NCBI RefSeq assembly: GCF_001424835.1
Contig: NZ_LMCQ01000001.1
Coordinates: 5,602 to 69,601, forward strand
Length of the DNA stretch: 64,000 bases
DNA from: Variovorax sp. Root318D1
GTDB taxonomy: Bacteria; Pseudomonadota; Gammaproteobacteria; Burkholderiales; Burkholderiaceae_C
Reading direction: 5' to 3'
Made by a program: the position numbers and the translations under genes. The first letter of the stretch is position 1, and each line of letters opens with the position of its first letter. Positions 44,942 through 54,434 of this stretch are shown here, piece after piece. Under the pieces are notes generated by a model that saw only the letters and a program-made list of their open reading frames with translations, was not told where the DNA came from and made no database searches.

Positions 44942-45784
44942 TCAGCCGGGCTTTTGCGCCTGTTCGCACTTCACCTGGATCAGTTCGCGCTCGTCCAGCG
45001 TGGCGCCAATGCGCACGGCGCTGAGGCAGCCGCCCCAGACGCAGCCCGTGTCGGTGGAAAGCAGGTCGGGCCGCGAAAGCCAGCCCAGCGTCGACCAATG
45101 GCCAAAGGCCACGGTGGCATGCGCGGTCTTGCGGCCGGGCACGTCGAACCAGGGCATGAAGCCTTCGGGGCCGGGCCGCATGCCGTCCTTGCTCTCGAAC
45201 TCCATCACGCCTTCGGCCGTGCAAAAGCGCATGCGTGTCAGCGCGTTGACGATGGCGCGCAGCCGCGCGCCGCCGGTGAGCGTGTCGCTCCACTGCGCCG
45301 GCTCGTTGCCGTACATGTCGAGCAAGAACTCGCCCAGCGCAGGGCCGCGCAGCACCGATTCGACCTCGGCCGCCAGCACCAGCGTGTCGCCCACCGTCCA
45401 CTGCGGCAGGACGCCGGCGTGCACCATGAGCAGGTCGCCGCCATCGATCTGCATGTGCAGCGCCATGTGCTGCTGGCGCACCCACTCGAGCATGGCTTCG
45501 CTGTCTGGCGCCTCGAGCAGCGTCGCCAGCGTGTCCTTGCGGCCGGACTTGCGCGCACCGTGCGCCACGCCCAGCAGGTGCAGGTCGTGGTTGCCGAGCA
45601 GGCTCAGCGCCGAGGCGCCGAAGCCGTGCACGCGCCGCAGCACGGCGGCCGAGTCGGGCCCGCGGTTGACCAGGTCGCCGAGCAGGACGATGGTGTCGCG
45701 GCTGGGGGAGAAACCGATCCTGTCGAGCAGTCGCTGGAGGGCGGCGTCGCAGCCCTGGATGTCGCCGATCAAGTAAAGTGCCAT
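44942..45784 (-). CDS. apaH: Symmetrical bis(5'-nucleosyl)-tetraphosphatase
   Basis: This 280-residue enzyme hydrolyses Ap4A to two ADP. Metallophosphatase motifs are complete: YLIGDIQGC, LLGDLVNRGPDS and LLGNHDLHLLGV, plus LLMVHAGVLPQWT. The size matches the family. It is divergent from the CNNM-type gene, with only 23 bases between starts, so their promoters overlap. Confidence 0.96.
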   Translation of the reverse strand: MALYLIGDIQGCDAALQRLLDRIGFSPSRDTIVLLGDLVNRGPDSAAVLRRVHGFGASALSLLGNHDLHLLGVAHGARKSGRKDTLATLLEAPDSEAMLEWVRQQHMALHMQIDGGDLLMVHAGVLPQWTVGDTLVLAAEVESVLRGPALGEFLLDMYGNEPAQWSDTLTGGARLRAIVNALTRMRFCTAEGVMEFESKDGMRPGPEGFMPWFDVPGRKTAHATVAFGHWSTLGWLSRPDLLSTDTGCVWGGCLSAVRIGATLDERELIQVKCEQAQKPG

Positions 45785-45807
45785 GTCCTCATTTTCACCC
45801 CCTGTTC

Positions 45808-47118
45808 ATGGATGTTCTCCTGCTGGCCATGCTGACCACGCTCAATGCGTTGTTCGCGATGTCCGAAATGGCCCTTTCAACCAGCCGGCGCGCGCGCCTG
45901 GCAGCGCTGGCCGAGACAGGAGACGCCGGCGCGGAAGCCGCGCTCAAGCTGATGGAGGAGCCCACCCATTTCCTCTCGACCGTGCAGATCGGCATCACCT
46001 CGATCGGCATGCTCAGCGGTATCGTGGGGGAGGCCGCCTTCGCGGCGCCGCTCGCCGTGTGGATGGAGCACCTGGGCATGGGCCGCGGCACGGCCAGCGT
46101 GGCTTCCACCGCCGTGGTGGTGACAGGCATCACCTTTTTCACCATCATCTTCGGCGAGCTGGTGCCCAAGCGCATCGGCCAGCTTTATCCGGAACCCGTG
46201 GCGCGCTGGGTGTCGCGCCCGATGCGCGGGCTCGCCAAGGGCGCCAAGCCCTTCGTGTGGCTGCTCGCGAGCGCCACCGCCGCGGTGCTGAAGCTGCTGC
46301 GCATCGACGCCAATGCCGCGCGCTCCATGACCGAGGAAGAAATTTCGGCCAGCCTCGAAGAGGGCGTGGATGCCGGCGTGATCGAGCAACACGAGCACCA
46401 GATGGTGCGCAACGTGTTCCACCTGGACGACCGGCGGCTGTCGTCGCTCATGGTCCCGCGCGCCGACATCGAATGGCTCGACGCGTCGGACACCGTGGCA
46501 GAGGCACTGCAGAAGGTGGCGGATGCGGGCGCGCTCAACATCGTGCATTCGTGGTATCCGGTGTGTCGCCATTCGCTTGACGACGTGGTGGGCGTCATCA
46601 GCGTGGCGCACCTGCTGCGCCTGGGCACCGGCCACGACGGCGTGCTCGGGCAAGAGGCCGCGCCGGCCGTGTTCGTGCCCGAGACGCTCACCGGCATGGA
46701 GCTGCTCGAACAATTCCGCGAGCGTGGCGGCCGGCTCGTGTTCGTGGTCGACGAATACGGCGTGGTGCAGGGCCTCATGACCCCGCGCGACATGCTCGAA
46801 GCCATCACCGGCGAACTGCAGCCCGGCACCCTGACCGACGCCTGGGCGCGCGAGCGGCCCGATGGCGTGTGGGAGCTCGACGGGCTGATGCCCGTCTCCG
46901 AATTGCGCGCGCGGCTCGGCATTCGCGAGCTGCCGGACGAAGAGCGCGGGCGCTACAACACCGTCGCGGGCTTGCTCATGGCCGTGTCGGGCCACCTGCC
47001 CGCGACCGGCGAGGTCATCGACTGCGCCGGCTGGCATTTCGAGATCGCCGCACTCGAGGGACGCCGCATCGACCGGGTGCTGGCCGCGCCCGACAAGACG
47101 GCATCCAGGGACGACTAG
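45808..47118 (+). CDS. CNNM/CorC-type membrane protein (DUF21-CBS-CorC_HlyC)
   Basis: This 436-residue inner-membrane protein starts at ATG 45808; an in-frame GTG at 45778 would overlap apaH. The DUF21 domain (about 1-190) contains SEMALSTSRRARLAAL and FFTIIFGELVPKRIGQLYPE. Two CBS motifs follow (about 215-330: LMVPRADIEWL; VVDEYGVVQGLMTPRDMLEA), then a CorC_HlyC domain (about 345-425). The family exports or regulates Mg2+/Co2+. The next gene starts seven bases after its stop, so it may lead the pseudokinase operon. Confidence 0.9.
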   Translation: MDVLLLAMLTTLNALFAMSEMALSTSRRARLAALAETGDAGAEAALKLMEEPTHFLSTVQIGITSIGMLSGIVGEAAFAAPLAVWMEHLGMGRGTASVASTAVVVTGITFFTIIFGELVPKRIGQLYPEPVARWVSRPMRGLAKGAKPFVWLLASATAAVLKLLRIDANAARSMTEEEISASLEEGVDAGVIEQHEHQMVRNVFHLDDRRLSSLMVPRADIEWLDASDTVAEALQKVADAGALNIVHSWYPVCRHSLDDVVGVISVAHLLRLGTGHDGVLGQEAAPAVFVPETLTGMELLEQFRERGGRLVFVVDEYGVVQGLMTPRDMLEAITGELQPGTLTDAWARERPDGVWELDGLMPVSELRARLGIRELPDEERGRYNTVAGLLMAVSGHLPATGEVIDCAGWHFEIAALEGRRIDRVLAAPDKTASRDD

Positions 47119-47125
47119 GTCCGCC

Positions 47126-48100
47126 ATGCTCTCGCTGCTCGCCCTCAGCTGCCCGCAATGTTCGGCACCGTTGCCGCGTGCAGCGCGCTGGCGCACCGTC
47201 AACTGCAACTATTGCGGCGCCACCATCACGCGTGGCGAGGAAACCGTCGAGCGCGAGAGCTTTCGCGCGGCGCTGCGCCGGGCGAATGCCGACCACGGCG
47301 ACACCGGGCGCACGCTGCAATGGCGCGGCGCGCGCTACCGCGTGCTGGCACCGCTGGCCATCGGCGAGCACAGCGAAGTGCTGCTGGCCGAGCGGCTCGG
47401 TGCGCTGCCGGAGCGCGTCACGGCCAAGCTGGCACGCGAATCCGCGGACGGCGCCGTGCTGCTGCGCGAAGCCGCGGTGCTGCAGGCCTTGCAGGCGCTC
47501 GCCATGCCGGGCGCTTCGTATTTCACGCGCCGCCTGCCGCAGCCCGTCGGCACGGGGCTGGCCGAAGGGCTCGCAGACGGTGGCCGCCAGGCACTGATGC
47601 TGCGCCACCCGCCCGGTTTCTGGGGCAGCCTGCACAACGTGCAGCAGGCCAACCCGCGGGGCATCGATGCGCGGCACGCCGTGTGGCTCTGGCGACGCAT
47701 GCTGGAGGTGCTGGCCTTTGTGCACGACGCGGGCTGGACCCACCGCGACCTGTCGCCCGCGCATGCACTCGTGCATCCGCGCGACCATGGCGTGCTGATC
47801 GTCGGTTGGTCGCGGGCGCAGCAGGCATCCGGCCCGGCCCATGCCGCCGCCGCAGCGCGCGACCTGATGCAAAGCGCCTGGACCGTGCGCGCCGTGCTGC
47901 ACGGCCGGGCCGATGACAGCCCCGGTGTGGGCGACCGCACGCCCGCGCCGCTCGCCGCCTTGCTGCGCCGGTGCAGCGAAGACGCCGCCGAATGCCAGCG
48001 GCTGGGCGCGCGCGGCATCGAGCAGGCGCTGTCCACCGCATCGCACGAAGCCTTCGGCACGCCGCAGTTCGTTCATTTCGACCCGGCGCCCGGCGCCTGA
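47126..48100 (+). CDS. Zinc-ribbon protein kinase-like protein, probable pseudokinase
   Basis: This 324-residue protein begins with a four-Cys zinc ribbon (C9/C12, C27/C30: CPQC and CNYC). A kinase-fold domain follows: RYRVLAPLAIGEHSEVLLAE as a Gly-loop equivalent, VTAKLA with the ATP-binding Lys, REAAVLQAL with the helix-C Glu, and HRDLSPAH with catalytic-loop Asp208. The catalytic-loop Asn is His213, and the metal-binding DFG is replaced by VGW (226-228), so phosphotransfer is doubtful. It is tightly placed between the CNNM gene and a vWA gene. Function unknown; a scaffold or sensor in the cassette is inferred. Confidence 0.7.
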   Translation: MLSLLALSCPQCSAPLPRAARWRTVNCNYCGATITRGEETVERESFRAALRRANADHGDTGRTLQWRGARYRVLAPLAIGEHSEVLLAERLGALPERVTAKLARESADGAVLLREAAVLQALQALAMPGASYFTRRLPQPVGTGLAEGLADGGRQALMLRHPPGFWGSLHNVQQANPRGIDARHAVWLWRRMLEVLAFVHDAGWTHRDLSPAHALVHPRDHGVLIVGWSRAQQASGPAHAAAAARDLMQSAWTVRAVLHGRADDSPGVGDRTPAPLAALLRRCSEDAAECQRLGARGIEQALSTASHEAFGTPQFVHFDPAPGA

Positions 48101-48136
48101 AAACAACCATCGAAGAAAACAGAGGAGCACGCACCC

Positions 48137-49108
48137 ATGGGCTACGGAAACTACTCGCATGCCGCTCACACGGCGCTCATTGCCGACCGCGCCGCCAAGC
48201 CCGGTTCCGAGGTGTTCACCCAGACCGCCACGCACCCGCTGATGAACCCGCACGGGCTCAAGGTGCGCGAGTCGCGCGACAACGCCGATCACCCCAACTC
48301 GCTGGGCATTGCGTTCGCGCTCGACGTCACGGGCTCGATGGGCGACATCCCGCAGATCCTCGCGCGCCGCGAGCTGCCCACCTTCATGAAGCTCTTGACC
48401 GATTGCGGCGTGGCCGACCCGCAGCTCATGTTCATGGCCATCGGCGATGCGAATTCCGACCAGGCTTCGCTGCAGGTGGGTCAATTCGAATCGACCGCGC
48501 CGCTCATGGACCAGTGGCTGACCTGGAGCTATCTCGAAGGCGGGGGCGGTGGCAGCGGCGAAGAAAGCTACGAGCTGGCCTTCTACGTGATGGCGCAGCA
48601 CACCGACATGGACTGCTGGGTGAAGCGCAAGAAGCGCGGCTACCTGTTCGTGACCGGCGACGAGCTGCCGTATCCCGCCGTCTCGCGCCGCCAGGTCGAG
48701 GGGCTTATCGGCGAGAAGCTCGACGAAGACATTCCCATCGAGGAAGTCATTGCCGCCGCGGCCGAAACCTGCCACCTGTTCTTCCTGATACCCGACGCAC
48801 AGCGCCGCCGCCGCTGCGAGCCGCGCTGGCGCGAACTGCTCGGCGACCACGTGATCTGCATGGATTCGCCCGACGACGCTTGCGCAGTGGCCGCCGGCAT
48901 CGTGGCCCTCACCGAGAAGGCCGTGCCTCATCTCGACGGCCTGGCCAAGGTGATGGCCGCCACCGGCATGGAGAAGCAGCGCGTCGCCGGCGTGCTGCAT
49001 GCGCTCGACGGCTATGCCGCGCTGCTCGATCCGCTGGCGCCGCGGCGCGCACCGCCTGCAGCGGCCTCGGCGCCGCGTTCCTCGTGGTGGAAGCGGCTCT
49101 TCGGTTGA
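48137..49108 (+). CDS. von Willebrand factor A-domain protein
   Basis: This 323-residue cytoplasmic protein has a vWA domain starting near residue 55 with the metal-site motif FALDVTGSMGD (DxTxS variant of DxSxS) and a second metal Asp in MFMAIGDAN. A Gly-rich loop (SYLEGGGGGSGEE) follows. No signal peptide is seen; the tail ends in SSWWKRLFG. The start ATG 48137 has AGAGGAG upstream. vWA proteins usually mediate metal-dependent protein contacts; partners here are probably the flanking pseudokinase and PurA-like proteins. Confidence 0.8.
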   Translation: MGYGNYSHAAHTALIADRAAKPGSEVFTQTATHPLMNPHGLKVRESRDNADHPNSLGIAFALDVTGSMGDIPQILARRELPTFMKLLTDCGVADPQLMFMAIGDANSDQASLQVGQFESTAPLMDQWLTWSYLEGGGGGSGEESYELAFYVMAQHTDMDCWVKRKKRGYLFVTGDELPYPAVSRRQVEGLIGEKLDEDIPIEEVIAAAAETCHLFFLIPDAQRRRRCEPRWRELLGDHVICMDSPDDACAVAAGIVALTEKAVPHLDGLAKVMAATGMEKQRVAGVLHALDGYAALLDPLAPRRAPPAAASAPRSSWWKRLFG

Positions 49109-49115
49109 CCGCCGT

Positions 49116-50474
49116 GTGAGCTCGGCAGCACACCCGACGCGCTACGTCTCGCTGCTCGGCCTGGGCTTTGGCGACTGCGGCAAGGGCCGCTTCACCGACC
49201 ACCTGTGCGCCGAGCTGCAGGCCCACACCGTGGTGCGCTTCAACGGCGGCGCGCAGGCCGGCCACAACGTGGTGCTGGCCGACGGCCGCCACCACACCTT
49301 TTCGCAGTTCGGCGCCGGCAGCTTTCACGCCGGCATGGCGACCGTGCTCGCGAGCCCGGTGATAGTGCATCCGACCGCGCTGCGCGTCGAGGAAGAAGCG
49401 CTGCGCCGCGTGGGCGTGAACGACGCCTTCGCTCGCTTGCTGATCGATGCGCGCTGCCGCGTCACCACGCCGTTCCACCAGGCCGCGGGCCGCCTGCGCG
49501 AATGGGCGAGGGGAGCGGCGGCGCATGGCAGCTGCGGCGTGGGCGTCGGAGAAACGGTGCGGCAGGCGCTGGCCGCGCCCGGCACGGCCCTGCGCTACGG
49601 CGACATGCGGCACCCCGCGCGCGCACTCGAAAAGCTCGAAGCCCTGCGCATCGCGCTGCAGCGCGAGTTCGCAGAAGCGGCACCTCCCCATGCCGAGGCC
49701 GCGCAGGAACTGGCGCTGCTCGGCGACGCGACGCTTGCGCAGCGCTGGCTCGACGCGGCGGCGCCGTGCCTGCGCCTGTCGCCACCCGCGAGTGTCGACG
49801 CCATCGGCCAGCGCCTGGCGCGCCCCGGCACCGTGCTGTTCGAAGGCGCGCAGGGCGTGCTGCTCGACGAGTGGCGCGGCTTTCATCCGCACACCACCTG
49901 GAGCACCATCTCCACCGCCGCCGTCGAAGCCGTGCTGCGCGATGCCGGCATCGATGCGCCCGTGCAGCACCTGGGCGTGCTGCGCAGCTACATCACGCGC
50001 CACGGTCCCGGGCCGCTGCCCACGCACGACCGCGCGCTCGATGCGCGGCTGGCCGAACCGCACAACGCCGACGAAGGCTGGCAAGGCGTGTTTCGCCGCG
50101 GCCATCCCGATGCAGTGCTGCTGCGCTATGCGCTCGCCACGGTCGGCCCGCTCCATGGGCTGGTGGCCAGCCATCTCGATGCGGTGGAAGGCGCCGGCCT
50201 GCGCTGGTGCGCGGGCTATCGCACCGCCGACGGCGCCAGCCTCGCGTCGCTGCCATTGGCCGACGACGCGACGGACCTCGAGCAGCAGCACCGGTTGACG
50301 CAGTTGCTGCAAGGCGCGCAGCCGCTTTACGAGCCCGGCGGTATCGCCACCCCCGAGGCATGGATCGAAAGAGTCGAAGCCTTGAGCGGCCAGCGCGTGC
50401 GCTACGGCGCATTCGGGCCTGCGCGCGGCGCGGTGCGGTCCTTGCATGCCTTTGGCCAGATTGACCAGGTCTGA
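49116..50474 (+). CDS. Adenylosuccinate synthetase-like protein (divergent PurA paralogue)
   Basis: This 452-residue protein has a GTG start eight bases after the vWA stop. PurA blocks are recognisable in order: GLGFGDCGKGR (for GDEGKGK), FNGGAQAGHNVV with His50, GSCGVGVGET (for GTTGRGIGP), LFEGAQGVLLDE, YITRHGPGPLPTH and SHLDAVEG (for TKLD). The two residues matching E. coli catalytic Asp13 and His41 are kept, so ligation chemistry on a purine nucleotide is plausible. The guanine-binding Lys is replaced by His, and surroundings differ. It is unlikely to be the housekeeping PurA. Confidence 0.8.
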   Translation: MSSAAHPTRYVSLLGLGFGDCGKGRFTDHLCAELQAHTVVRFNGGAQAGHNVVLADGRHHTFSQFGAGSFHAGMATVLASPVIVHPTALRVEEEALRRVGVNDAFARLLIDARCRVTTPFHQAAGRLREWARGAAAHGSCGVGVGETVRQALAAPGTALRYGDMRHPARALEKLEALRIALQREFAEAAPPHAEAAQELALLGDATLAQRWLDAAAPCLRLSPPASVDAIGQRLARPGTVLFEGAQGVLLDEWRGFHPHTTWSTISTAAVEAVLRDAGIDAPVQHLGVLRSYITRHGPGPLPTHDRALDARLAEPHNADEGWQGVFRRGHPDAVLLRYALATVGPLHGLVASHLDAVEGAGLRWCAGYRTADGASLASLPLADDATDLEQQHRLTQLLQGAQPLYEPGGIATPEAWIERVEALSGQRVRYGAFGPARGAVRSLHAFGQIDQV

Positions 50475-50534
50475 AAAACCGGCGCAAGCACCCTCAAGCA
50501 GAATCCGAAGCCATCACCACGATTGACAGCCCAC

Positions 50535-51212: not shown

Positions 51213-54200
51213 TCACCAGCGCACCTTCAGCCCCACGCTGGCGTTGAGCCCGCTTTTCACGCGCGCCCCGCCACCCGAGGCCCACAGCTTGCCCACCTCG
51301 CCATAGAGGCTCATGCCCGGCGTCAGCCGCAGCGTGGCGCCCGCGGCCAGCTCGGTGCTGGTGCCGCCGGTGCGTGTGGCAATGTCGGTGAAGCCCGCCG
51401 GACCGATGAAGCGGGTCACGTCCGTGCCGCTGCTGCTGCGGTAGAGGTTCAGCCGCGCATAGGGTTGCAGCGGACCGGCGCCGGTGGTCATCTCGCCCTT
51501 GACGCGGACGCCAGCGCGCACCAGCCAGCCGCTGTGGCTGTCCTGCTGCACCAGGGCGCCGACGATGCTGGCGTCGTCCAGGCTCACACGTTGGTGCACC
51601 AGCTGCAGCTGCGGCTCCACGATCCAGTCCGGCGAGATACGGAAGCCCTGGCCCACCTCGATGGAGGCCAGCAGGCTGTTGCCCTTGCCCGAACCAGCGG
51701 AACCCAGCGCGGTCGATGCGGTGTAGCGGTGACGCCCGGCCTGCAGCACGCCGTCCAGGTACAGGCCGCTGTCGTTCTTCCAGGTGGCGTAGGCACCGAG
51801 ATACTGGCTCCGGAGCTCGTTGGAGCCGACCGCGTAGTTCGGCAGGCCGCGCGCGAAGCCGTTCACGTCCATGTGGCCTTCGAGCTCGCCCACGTAGAGG
51901 CCCACGTGCCAGTTGGGGTTGGCCCACAGGTCGGCGCCGGCCTGGAAGCCCGTGAGCCGCCCTTCGCTGCGCGGGCTCACGGTGCCGGCTTGGCCGATGT
52001 TGCGGTCCATGCGGATGATGCGGGCCCAGGCCTGCCGATAGCCCTGGCCGCTTGTTTCGCTGATGCCGGCGGCCGTATCGTCGCCGACGCGCTGATGCAG
52101 GTTGCCCACCATGGCCAGGTTGGCCTGGCGGAACTGCTCAGGCAGTGCGGCATACAGCGGCACTTCGACGCGATAGGTGGGCACCGTCAAGCCGCCTGGG
52201 GACGACGGCGTACCGCCGTCTTCGCTCAGCGGGTTGCCCTCGTTCGGCGGGGGCGCGGGAGGCGCGGGCGGTGCCGGCGGTGCTGGGGGCGCTGGCGGTG
52301 CAGGTGGCGCCGGTGGCGCCGGTGGCGCCGGTGGTGCTGGGGGCGCCGGCGGTGCAGGTGGCGGCGGTGGCGGTGGTGGCGGTGGGGGGGGCGGTGGCGG
52401 TGGCGCGACGATGATGCCGGAGCGCAGGTACCAGTTCTCGCCCGCGCCGGCCGCGTCGGCCGCATGCAGGCGGTACTCGTAGGCGCCGGCGTCGACGTGG
52501 CCGCCCGCGAGGACGAAGGCGCTGCGGGTGGTCTGTGCGGTCGTGGTGGCCCCGTCCATCGCGGTCACCACCTCGATGCCGCTGCCGGTGGTCAGCGCGC
52601 CCAGGCCGCCCAGGTTGGTGATCTGTATGAATGTGGTGCCGCTCGCGACGGCCGAGCACCCGCACAGGATCAACCGGTCGCTCAGGCTGCTGCTCGTGCC
52701 GAGGGCCGTGCCCAGGCGCAGCGTGCCGCCGTTGCCTACCCAGGGGCCCTGCACCGTGAGCGTGGCGCCCGGCACGCTGCTCAGCAGCGAGACGGTGCCG
52801 CCGATGGCCATCGATGCGATGGTCTGGCTGTGGCCGGCCAGGTCGAGCGTGGCGCCCGGCGCCACCGTGAAGTTGCTGGCGTGGCTGAAGGTATTGGCCG
52901 CGCCCGCGCGCAGGGTGCCCGCGGCGACGTTGGTGGCGCCCGTGTACGTGCTGGCTGCGCCGAGCGTCAGCGTGCCCGCGCCATCCTTCACGAGCCCGCC
53001 GACGCCCGAGATGGGGCCCGACCACGTCATGCCGTAGCCGTGAGTGTCGATGGTGCCCGTGCCGTCGATCCGCAAGGCATTGGCCATGTTCAGGCCATCG
53101 GCGCCGGGGCTCACGCTGGCGGCAGCCCCGCTATCGATGCCGATGGCGCCCACCAGCGATGAGCCCGCGTTCACGGTCAGGCTGTTGACGCCGCCCGTGA
53201 ACCGGACAGCCGATGCACGCGTGACGCCGTCGCCACCGAGCCCGCCGGCAATGGTGCCGTTGTTGGTGATGAAGAGGTTGGCGCCCACCACGCCTTCGCC
53301 GCCGGCGCCGTTGGCACCGCTTGCGCCACCGTTGCTGTTGGCCCCGCCGATGCCGCCCGTTCCACCGGCAATGGTGCCGCTGTTGATGAGCGTCGCGCCG
53401 GTGCCGGTGGACCACAGCCCGATGCCGCCGTCGCCGCCACCACCGGGCGCACCGGTGCCGCCCGCGCCGCCGCCGCCGGCTCCGCCAGTGCCACCGGCGC
53501 CGCCGGTGATCTGCCCGGAGTTGTTGACCGTCACGGTGCTGCCTGCCAGCGTGACGCCGTGCCCGCCGGCGCCCCCGCCGCCGCCCGCGGCGTTGACGCG
53601 GGCCGGCAGCAGTTCGGAGCCGCCGGCTCCGCCCACACCGCCCGTGATGTTGGCGCTGGTGCCGAAGTTGAATCCTGGAGACGCCGCGCGAAAGAAGAAT
53701 CCGCCGCCGCCGCTGCCGCCGCCACCGCCTTGCGAATAGGCATCGCCACCTTTGCCGCCTGCGCCGCCCGTGGAGTTGCCGGAGGCGAAGTAGTCGCCGA
53801 GCGGGCCGATCAGCGTGGACCCATAGCCTCCCGCGCCGCCGCCGCCGGCCGCCCAGAAGCCGTTGCCGCCTGCACCTCCGCGGCCTCCGGTGAAGTTTCC
53901 GAAGGACGCGAGGGCGCTGGAACTCAGCACCAGGCCGTAGTAGCCGCCGCCTCCTCCGCCGCCATAGCCGTTGCCGGCGCCGAACCCGCCGGTATGCGAT
54001 TCGCCCGCGGCGCCGTCGGCGCCGGGCGAGGCTCCCGCCGCACCGCCCGCGCCAGCGGTTGCGCCGGCGAAAGAGCCGACGTCGGCGGCGGAACCTGCCG
54101 TCACGCCGGCTTCGGTCGACGATCCGCCGTTACCCCCGTGCGCGCCCAGAGTGACATCGTTGAGGCCGCCGGCGCCGCCGCTGCCATTGCTGCCGCCCGC

Positions 54201-54434
54201 GCCGCCATGCAGTGCGGTGCTGATGGGCTGGCCGCCCGCGCCGCCGGCTGCCAGCGCGGTGGAGGCACTCAGGTACAGCACCGCGATGGCAATGGCATGC
54301 AGACTGAGCAACGCGGCCGCGCGCGGGGCGCCGCTGCCCGTGCTGGCCGAGCGCGCGTGGCCGCGCGAGATCTCGGGTGCGGCCACCCAGGTGCCGCGGG
54401 CGGGATTCCAGAGCGTTCGAAATATTCTGTTCAT
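51213..54434 (-). CDS. Glycine-rich type V autotransporter (adhesin-like)
   Basis: This 1073-residue autotransporter has an extended signal peptide region (MNRIFRTLWNPARGTWVAAP, then ARSAST and a hydrophobic core). The passenger (about 60-480) is made of Gly/Ala-rich repeats (GGAGGSNGSGGAGG style) followed by autotransporter-associated repeats (LVKDGAGTLTLGAASTYTGA). A poly-Pro and APP repeat tract links it to the C-terminal beta-barrel (~280 residues) ending in LKVRW with the terminal aromatic. It probably makes a surface adhesin. A run of eight C in its coding strand (52384-52391) lies in the Pro tract. Confidence 0.9.
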   Translation of the reverse strand: MNRIFRTLWNPARGTWVAAPEISRGHARSASTGSGAPRAAALLSLHAIAIAVLYLSASTALAAGGAGGQPISTALHGGAGGSNGSGGAGGLNDVTLGAHGGNGGSSTEAGVTAGSAADVGSFAGATAGAGGAAGASPGADGAAGESHTGGFGAGNGYGGGGGGGYYGLVLSSSALASFGNFTGGRGGAGGNGFWAAGGGGAGGYGSTLIGPLGDYFASGNSTGGAGGKGGDAYSQGGGGGSGGGGFFFRAASPGFNFGTSANITGGVGGAGGSELLPARVNAAGGGGGAGGHGVTLAGSTVTVNNSGQITGGAGGTGGAGGGGAGGTGAPGGGGDGGIGLWSTGTGATLINSGTIAGGTGGIGGANSNGGASGANGAGGEGVVGANLFITNNGTIAGGLGGDGVTRASAVRFTGGVNSLTVNAGSSLVGAIGIDSGAAASVSPGADGLNMANALRIDGTGTIDTHGYGMTWSGPISGVGGLVKDGAGTLTLGAASTYTGATNVAAGTLRAGAANTFSHASNFTVAPGATLDLAGHSQTIASMAIGGTVSLLSSVPGATLTVQGPWVGNGGTLRLGTALGTSSSLSDRLILCGCSAVASGTTFIQITNLGGLGALTTGSGIEVVTAMDGATTTAQTTRSAFVLAGGHVDAGAYEYRLHAADAAGAGENWYLRSGIIVAPPPPPPPPPPPPPPPPAPPAPPAPPAPPAPPAPPAPPAPPAPPAPPAPPAPPPNEGNPLSEDGGTPSSPGGLTVPTYRVEVPLYAALPEQFRQANLAMVGNLHQRVGDDTAAGISETSGQGYRQAWARIIRMDRNIGQAGTVSPRSEGRLTGFQAGADLWANPNWHVGLYVGELEGHMDVNGFARGLPNYAVGSNELRSQYLGAYATWKNDSGLYLDGVLQAGRHRYTASTALGSAGSGKGNSLLASIEVGQGFRISPDWIVEPQLQLVHQRVSLDDASIVGALVQQDSHSGWLVRAGVRVKGEMTTGAGPLQPYARLNLYRSSSGTDVTRFIGPAGFTDIATRTGGTSTELAAGATLRLTPGMSLYGEVGKLWASGGGARVKSGLNASVGLKVRW
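52244..52410. repeat. Poly-Pro / APP-coding tandem repeat in the autotransporter
   Basis: The plus strand shows repeats of a nine-base GGCGGTGCC-like unit (coding Ala-Pro-Pro on the minus strand), followed by GGC-rich sequence coding a run of prolines, including an uninterrupted G8 at 52384-52391. Repeat number can change by slippage. Confidence 0.85.

Follow-up and report, generated by a model that had tools for sequence, protein, structure and literature searches.

What does a divergent relative of adenylosuccinate synthetase (PurA) do when its gene travels with the genes for a vWA protein and a kinase-like protein? This question is raised by three co-directed genes in a 64,000-nucleotide stretch of the Variovorax sp. 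Root318D1 genome (contig NZ_LMCQ01000001.1; the whole stretch is hereafter the window, and positions are counted from its first letter):

47126..48100, + strand: KIN (324 aa), an N-terminal zinc ribbon (C9, C12, C27, C30) followed by a protein-kinase-fold, probable pseudokinase domain
48137..49108, + strand: vWA protein (323 aa) with conserved residues of the metal-ion-dependent adhesion site (MIDAS) type and a conserved C-terminal WWKRLF tail; phrog_2971
49116..50474, + strand: PurA-like enzyme (452 aa), a divergent member of the adenylosuccinate synthetase superfamily, with a GTG start at 49116; phrog_1211

The genes are separated by 36 bases (KIN/vWA) and 7 bases (vWA/PurA-like), and the PurA-like open reading frame (ORF) has a longer alternative start at 48999, which would overlap the vWA gene. 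We tentatively read this cassette as a co-inherited, mobile nucleotide-modification module, linked to nicotinamide adenine dinucleotide (NAD) and ADP-ribose, in which the vWA protein and a neofunctionalised PurA-like enzyme would form the core and the pseudokinase would be an accessory; the chemistry and the outcome proposed below are predictions.

Three genes inherited as a unit

KIN, vWA and the PurA-like gene (the latter at 351 bits or more) coincide in 26 of 61 Variovorax genomes, and the other 35 lack all three; these genomes are related, so the agreement does not amount to 26 independent events. In six cassette-free close relatives, the site is empty: the flanks nearly meet, with 37-83 other bases between them, and thus the unit that was gained or lost consists of the three genes. 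The window matches these relatives up to base 47102-47122 and again from base 50534 or 50543, and the gene upstream of the empty site is 94-96% identical to that in the window. The missing stretch and the adjacent upstream gene are as follows:

47119..50533, no strand: stretch missing from the six close Variovorax relatives; its edges shift by about 20 bases at most
45778..47118, + strand: CNNM/CorC-HlyC-type gene, context only, ending 7 bases before KIN

The CNNM gene was rejected as a fourth member of the cassette because it is matched in all 61 Variovorax genomes, with or without the cassette. All three cassette genes are subject to purifying selection, as estimated in 11 Variovorax loci selected for comparison with the window (omega of 0.10-0.45 for KIN, 0.01-0.20 for vWA and 0.16-0.36 for the PurA-like gene). 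The vWA gene is the slowest-evolving of the three, about equal to the housekeeping-like CNNM neighbour (omega of 0.01-0.16, scored in 8 loci). Together, co-presence in 26 of the 61 genomes and purifying selection show that the cassette is not a chance grouping; the three genes are inherited as a unit.

The same arrangement extends beyond Variovorax. A vWA profile searched against named genomes yielded 318 relatives; the 80 best of these make up what is hereafter called the 80-locus set. In 78 of these 80 loci, the genes follow the order KIN-vWA-PurA-like on one strand, counting partial copies at contig ends; in the two exceptions (L081 and L083), the contig stops in or after vWA. Frames are broken in one locus (L098), and a helicase-like gene is interposed in another (L137).

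The genome that contains the window also encodes an ordinary PurA, which scores 577 bits against PF00709, compared with 187 bits for the window copy. In each of the 10 genomes checked, one canonical PurA (577-591 bits) is found beside one divergent copy (125-192 bits). A single Variovorax genome carries, apart from its PurA and cassette copy, an additional, split PurA-superfamily stretch (G030:C27:114996-115895).

An earlier note, made from the letters of the window alone, had described three tightly packed genes with these same gaps, and the coordinates hold. Its proposal that the genes form a unit is upheld by both the Variovorax and the 80-locus comparisons. Neither of the two observations that it had held up as counter-evidence is made: the genes are not scattered in relatives, given the shared order in the 80-locus set, and the PurA-like gene is not the only adenylosuccinate synthetase of its genome. 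The further suggestions of that note, a nucleotide-like product of the enzyme and a sensor or scaffold role for the other two proteins, stay hypothetical.

The PurA-like enzyme and its partners

The PurA-like protein matches PF00709 over its full length, far above the cut-off of 27 bits, but falls under the equivalog cut-offs for adenylosuccinate synthase (147 vs 402 bits for NF002223; 126 vs 395.55 bits for TIGR00184). We compared E. coli PurA with 29 relatives of the window protein, from 18 genome loci, 7 viral contigs, 2 phages and 2 plasmids. D13, K16, H41, Q224 and T239 of PurA are kept in 29/29 relatives, as is the Q-G of a remodelled loop, and D333 is retained in 28/29; the window protein, too, keeps the catalytic D13 and H41 and the P-loop (the GDxGKG loop). 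Other positions are altered almost throughout: N38 is replaced by Q and T129 by C or V, each in 28/29; R143 is retained as Arg in only 3/29; V273 is replaced by H, T300 by W, F or Y, and T301 by Q, each in 29/29; and K331 is replaced by H in 26/29. In the window protein, all six of N38, T129, R143, V273, T300 and T301 are changed. In PurA, we take N38, T129, T300/T301 and K331 to belong to the parts that bind the phosphate and ribose of inosine monophosphate (IMP), form the amino-acid loop and read the guanine. In PurZ, the R143 equivalent reaches across the dimer to pair with the alpha-phosphate of the nucleotide; in PurA, R303 contacts the IMP ribose and aspartate, and the V273 equivalent is near the ribose (PMC8342488). 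The combination of kept and altered positions indicates that the phosphoryl-transfer engine is retained and that the parts for acceptor, amino acid and base reading have been reshaped, alike in phages and bacteria. Phage members of the family (L155 gp260, phrog_1211) are labelled 2-aminooxy adenylosuccinate synthetase in GenBank and PHROGs; they keep Asp13 and score far under the PurZ cut-off.

KIN yields only weak Pfam matches, all under the cut-off; its AlphaFold2 model (pLDDT 90) matches protein kinases in Foldseek (E 6e-11). The lysine and glutamate at K101 and E115 are kept in 37/39 and 38/39 aligned rows, respectively. In the HRD motif, Arg is replaced by Gly in 36/39 rows and Asp is present in 20/39; the catalytic-loop Asn is His in 39/39, and most rows have xGW instead of DFG. 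HRD itself is intact in the window copy. Given the degeneration of the HRD, Asn and DFG positions, KIN is a probable pseudokinase. At the N-terminus, most genome loci of the 80-locus set encode a zinc ribbon, and the copies from phages and from Agrobacterium, Acetobacter, Rhodococcus and Tsukamurella have a DnaJ-like HPD segment there; the DnaJ model exceeds its cut-off in L152 alone and is weak or silent in the other copies with this segment.

The vWA protein has no match in Pfam, NCBIfam or PADLOC. Its MIDAS-type residues D63, T65, S67, T156 and D175 are invariant in 38/38 rows, and its model (pLDDT 80) matches the vWA/I-like domains of integrin beta in Foldseek (E 4e-6, with a TMq of only about 0.4), which moderately supports a vWA fold. 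The WWKRLF tail lies behind a variable linker, with W317 and W318 each found in 26/38 rows, and resembles a docking peptide. These identities, a zinc-ribbon kinase-like protein that is probably a pseudokinase, a vWA protein and a divergent PurA-like enzyme, agree with what the earlier note had proposed.

Spread over bacteria, plasmids and phages

The wide genome searches outside Variovorax were all baited with vWA, and genes in the neighbourhoods were called by codon usage, so that starts are approximate and some genes visible to blastp were missed (KIN in L139, vWA in L143). By record title, the hosts include Burkholderiales, Rhodocyclaceae, Verrucomicrobia and Myxococcota, along with single metagenome-assembled genomes of Acidobacteria, Fibrobacteria and Chloroflexi. 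Outside Variovorax, presence is thin and patchy. A random draw of 398 Pseudomonadota genomes contained 6 positives, two of them Variovorax; a second draw, from the order of genome G349, gave 5 positives among 249 genomes, one of these a weak match; and a draw from the family gave 5 among 250, namely, three Variovorax and two weak matches.

Among the 15 viral contigs, nine (L142-L150) carry vWA and PurA-like genes adjacent or near to each other, with L146 cut at the contig end. Two others (L140 and L141), listed as viral in IMG/VR, show the arrangement CNNM-KIN-vWA(-PurA) with about 90% vWA identity to the window and resemble a Variovorax chromosome. The remaining four (L151-L154) encode vWA and a kinase without PurA. 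In this sister arrangement, the kinase has a J-domain and canonical-looking catalytic motifs, and its gene precedes those for a pyruvate-kinase-barrel protein and a Thg1-type tRNA guanylyltransferase, with a DUF2828 protein also encoded in L151, L153 and L154. In Mycobacterium phage LinStu, gp257-260 are a kinase, vWA, a hypothetical protein and the PurA-like enzyme, in that order. A tblastn search with the window proteins matched vWA in 206 phage records and the PurA-like protein in 226, both mainly from phages of Mycobacterium (188 for vWA and 189 for PurA-like), Rhizobium (10 each) and Vibrio (6 each); some of the remaining phage PurA matches, such as the Salmonella and Listeria records, are probably ordinary PurA.

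A vWA match is also present in 20 plasmid records, from seven genera besides Variovorax. We examined one record each from Rhodococcus, Agrobacterium, Tsukamurella, Acetobacter, Rhodovulum and Rhizobium, and found both vWA and the PurA-like gene in five of the six; in the Rhodovulum record, vWA alone was found. The phage and plasmid proteins are about 27-42% identical to the PurA-like protein of the window. KIN was not detected in six random non-Variovorax loci (see below), nor in most phage loci, and its absence from the former indicates that the core of the cassette consists of vWA and the PurA-like enzyme. The three-gene system of the earlier note thus stands as a unit in Variovorax and in the 80-locus set, but does not extend to these random loci and most phages.

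Association with NAD metabolism

In many relatives, the recurrent outside partner of the module is NAD and ADP-ribose metabolism, represented by the regulator NrtR and by NAD-salvage genes. This association, which goes beyond the sequence of the window alone, is new here. In six of the six random non-Variovorax Pseudomonadota loci (L195-L198, L206 and L207, from 5 genera; the weak match G700 was excluded), NrtR is located directly beside the vWA-PurA-like pair and is divergently transcribed. A genome-wide search with the Pfam NrtR_WHD model gives a match over the cut-off at that spot in all six, with just 1-3 copies per genome. Within the 80-locus set, NrtR lies within six genes of the cassette in 10 of the 50 non-Variovorax loci, five of these ten being Massilia, and NadM, NadE and PncB are found near it in 5 of the 50. 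Pfam checks of NAD-linked neighbours were done in L088, L113 and L119; the nicotinamidase-like gene of L088 matches Isochorismatase weakly. In L090 and L110, the salvage genes are on the same strand as KIN and end a few bases before it. In the five Massilia loci (L113-L117), an SPFH/Band_7_1 protein is encoded between NrtR and the kinase gene, with a SHOCT-like tail, under the cut-off, in L113.

Each of the six plasmid loci contains a neighbouring NrtR- or Nudix-like gene, with NrtR_WHD confirmed in L158 and L202. In a Vibrio phage, a NADAR gene lies three genes upstream of vWA. In a Rhizobium phage, metallophosphatase, HAD, PRTase_3 and Nudix genes are found upstream; the Nudix gene is annotated as nicotinamide mononucleotide adenylyltransferase/Nudix, and only the Nudix part was found.

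We scanned 13 regions for palindromes, leaving out L090. TTGCAA-type palindromes, candidate operators identified without a shuffled control, are located between NrtR and the vWA or kinase gene in L196, L197, L198, L201 and L202. An imperfect one is present in L207, unrelated ones in L158 and L104 (the L104 region lies inside the NrtR gene), and none in L088, L119, L195, L200 and L206. In M. smegmatis, ADP-ribose releases NrtR from DNA, and the homologue in C. glutamicum reportedly responds to NAD (PMC6800001).

A proposed function and its alternatives

The reading that we prefer, though with somewhat less than even confidence, is that of a stress or conflict module that modifies nucleotides and is linked to NAD or ADP-ribose. 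A shift in NAD or ADP-ribose would turn the module on, acting through NrtR where it is present. The enzyme would spend a nucleoside triphosphate (NTP) on activating the 6-oxo group of a purine, or a comparable lactam, in a substrate other than free IMP, plausibly of the NAD/ADP-ribose type or another enlarged nucleotide, to which an amino acid would then be joined. The metal-binding vWA protein and the zinc-ribbon or J-domain pseudokinase may gate the enzyme or dock it on a partner. Cells might be protected, or recover, when their NAD or purine pools come under attack; alternatively, the outcome could be a modified nucleotide signal. A more specific proposal, that vWA and the neofunctionalised PurA constitute an unrecognised NAD/ADP-ribose-responsive pathway of bacteria, plasmids and large phages, making an amino-acyl purine nucleotide (a signal or an antimetabolite) from a non-IMP substrate, is doubtful, if conceivable.

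Several observations weigh against the preferred reading. The genome search found no NrtR in the window's own genome, and hence the NAD link comes via relatives only. In 40 of the 50 non-Variovorax loci of the 80-locus set, some on short contigs, there is no NrtR within six genes; moreover, the NrtR and salvage profiles used for this set were built from the same loci and clusters. In the two actinobacterial loci, L157 and L199, the Nudix genes show no detectable NrtR_WHD, the DNA-binding domain. Finally, the residue roles were transferred through an alignment at about 30% identity, with ambiguous gap placement around R303.

A PurA paralogue with a kept engine and altered substrate and amino-acid pockets, consistently tied to vWA, points to an uncharacterised nucleotide reaction; the NrtR and NAD-salvage tie in relatives offers a testable trigger; and the presence of the same pair in mycobacteriophages, with the PurA-like matches in 189 records noted above, provides an experimental system.

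Anti-phage defence is unlikely; here, the enzyme would make or destroy a nucleotide in infected cells, and the vWA-PurA pairs of phages would be acquired parts serving as counter-defence. Such a role would account for the patchy presence in the first two draws (6/398 and 5/249 genomes) and for the plasmid and phage copies, and vWA is paired with a kinase in TerY-P-like modules (PMC11090510). However, no PADLOC model matches vWA or the PurA-like protein, no defence genes are found among the identified recurrent neighbour clusters, no effector was recognised, and the slow evolution of vWA, close to that of CNNM, is unlike that of a typical arms-race sensor.

Metabolite repair is less probable than defence. 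Here, the enzyme, together with the host adenylosuccinate lyase, would re-aminate deaminated adenine in NAD-type dinucleotides, converting hypoxanthine back to adenine. Such an activity would fit a protein in which base-side and catalytic residues are kept and the site for a free 5'-phosphate is remodelled, as well as the placement of the module after NAD-salvage genes in 5 loci and next to NrtR in many. It leaves the vWA protein and the pseudokinase unexplained, though; the amino-acid loop is altered as well, and the conserved cassette contains no deaminase or lyase gene.

Proteins with vWA and pseudokinase domains are typical scaffolds, and such partners would suit a PurA-like protein that is no ligase at all but an NTP-dependent switch or scaffold in a Ter-like signalling complex, with the P-loop and D13/H41 kept and the substrate-pocket residues not. 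We nevertheless consider this improbable, more so than repair, because Q224, T239 and the Q-G of the remodelled loop are conserved in 29/29 relatives, although a protein acting solely as a switch could do without them. An ordinary PurA isozyme kept for gene dosage, as the full-length PF00709 match might suggest, is highly improbable given the canonical PurA in 10/10 genomes checked, scores under every equivalog cut-off listed, and changed IMP and aspartate ligands. Least probable of all is a PurZ-like enzyme making 2-aminoadenine for DNA, a role evoked by the GenBank and PHROGs names of the phage members: Asp13 is present in 29/29 relatives, compared with Ser at this position in 147/147 phage PurZ proteins (PMC12884076), and the PurZ model scores 28.5 against a cut-off of 300, so the cassette enzyme is not PurZ.

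Surroundings of the cassette

In the window, the scanned neighbours of the cassette are GNAT, metallophosphatase, CNNM and heme-binding genes (Pfam). A CNNM gene is found downstream, on the opposite strand, in three other loci (L080, L082 and L084). Further along the window, an open frame of 1073 aa (51213-54434, - strand) contains long glycine-rich and Pro-Ala repeat stretches and, judged by eye, resembles an autotransporter.

Comparison with known systems

The function of the cassette appears to be undescribed. Among the literature matches listed, there is no description of the combination of KIN, vWA and the PurA-like enzyme, in line with the earlier note, whose author knew of no such system with a PurA paralogue; Rodionov et al. 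2008 or Anantharaman et al. 2012 might mention these genes. With PurA (E. coli 1ade/1cg4), the enzyme shares the whole-length PF00709 match, the GDxGKG loop, D13, K16, H41, Q224 and T239; it differs in N38, T129, R143, V273, T300, T301 and K331, in missing the equivalog cut-offs and in its partners. Accordingly, the catalytic residues are those of PurA, but neither the equivalog models nor the IMP and aspartate-loop residues place it among the IMP-specific adenylosuccinate synthetases. PurZ and PurZ0 of Z-DNA phages are likewise PurA-superfamily paralogues found in phages, with an altered nucleotide choice; besides the difference at D13, where they have Ser (or Gly), the threonines of the PurA aspartate loop are replaced here, and the neighbours are others.

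Membership in the known PADLOC defence families was rejected: vWA and the PurA-like protein have no match in PADLOC-DB, and KIN has only weak ones, the best being to PD-T4-6 kinases (E 4e-7, 27 bits). With the NAD regulons of the Nudix-type regulator NrtR, the module shares NrtR beside it in many relatives and NAD-salvage genes in the same gene run in some; it differs in that vWA and the PurA-like protein are not known enzymes of NAD biosynthesis and that the Variovorax copy lacks NrtR. Systems centred on an ADP-ribosylglycohydrolase (ARG) that act against viral ADP-ribosylation, as outlined in PMC9503650, also include a Nudix/NrtR regulator and, in some, a vWA gene. Membership in this group was rejected too: here, a PurA-like enzyme takes the place of ARG, and no ARG was found near the cassette in the 9 genomes tested (six have none, and the other three have one on another contig).

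Membership in the TerY-P triad of vWA, a PP2C phosphatase and a kinase with a C-terminal zinc ribbon was also rejected. In both, a vWA protein and a zinc-ribbon kinase-fold protein are encoded in one operon, and the MIDAS of vWA is kept; in the cassette, by contrast, the zinc ribbon is N-terminal and the kinase is degenerate, so that the active Ser/Thr kinase with a C-terminal zinc ribbon that marks the triad is lacking. PP2C is not among the scanned window neighbours or the identified recurrent neighbour clusters, with not every neighbour of every locus scanned for it, and the PurA-like enzyme stands in its place. Alongside the known vWA-kinase signalling modules, the cassette suggests a branch that makes nucleotides.

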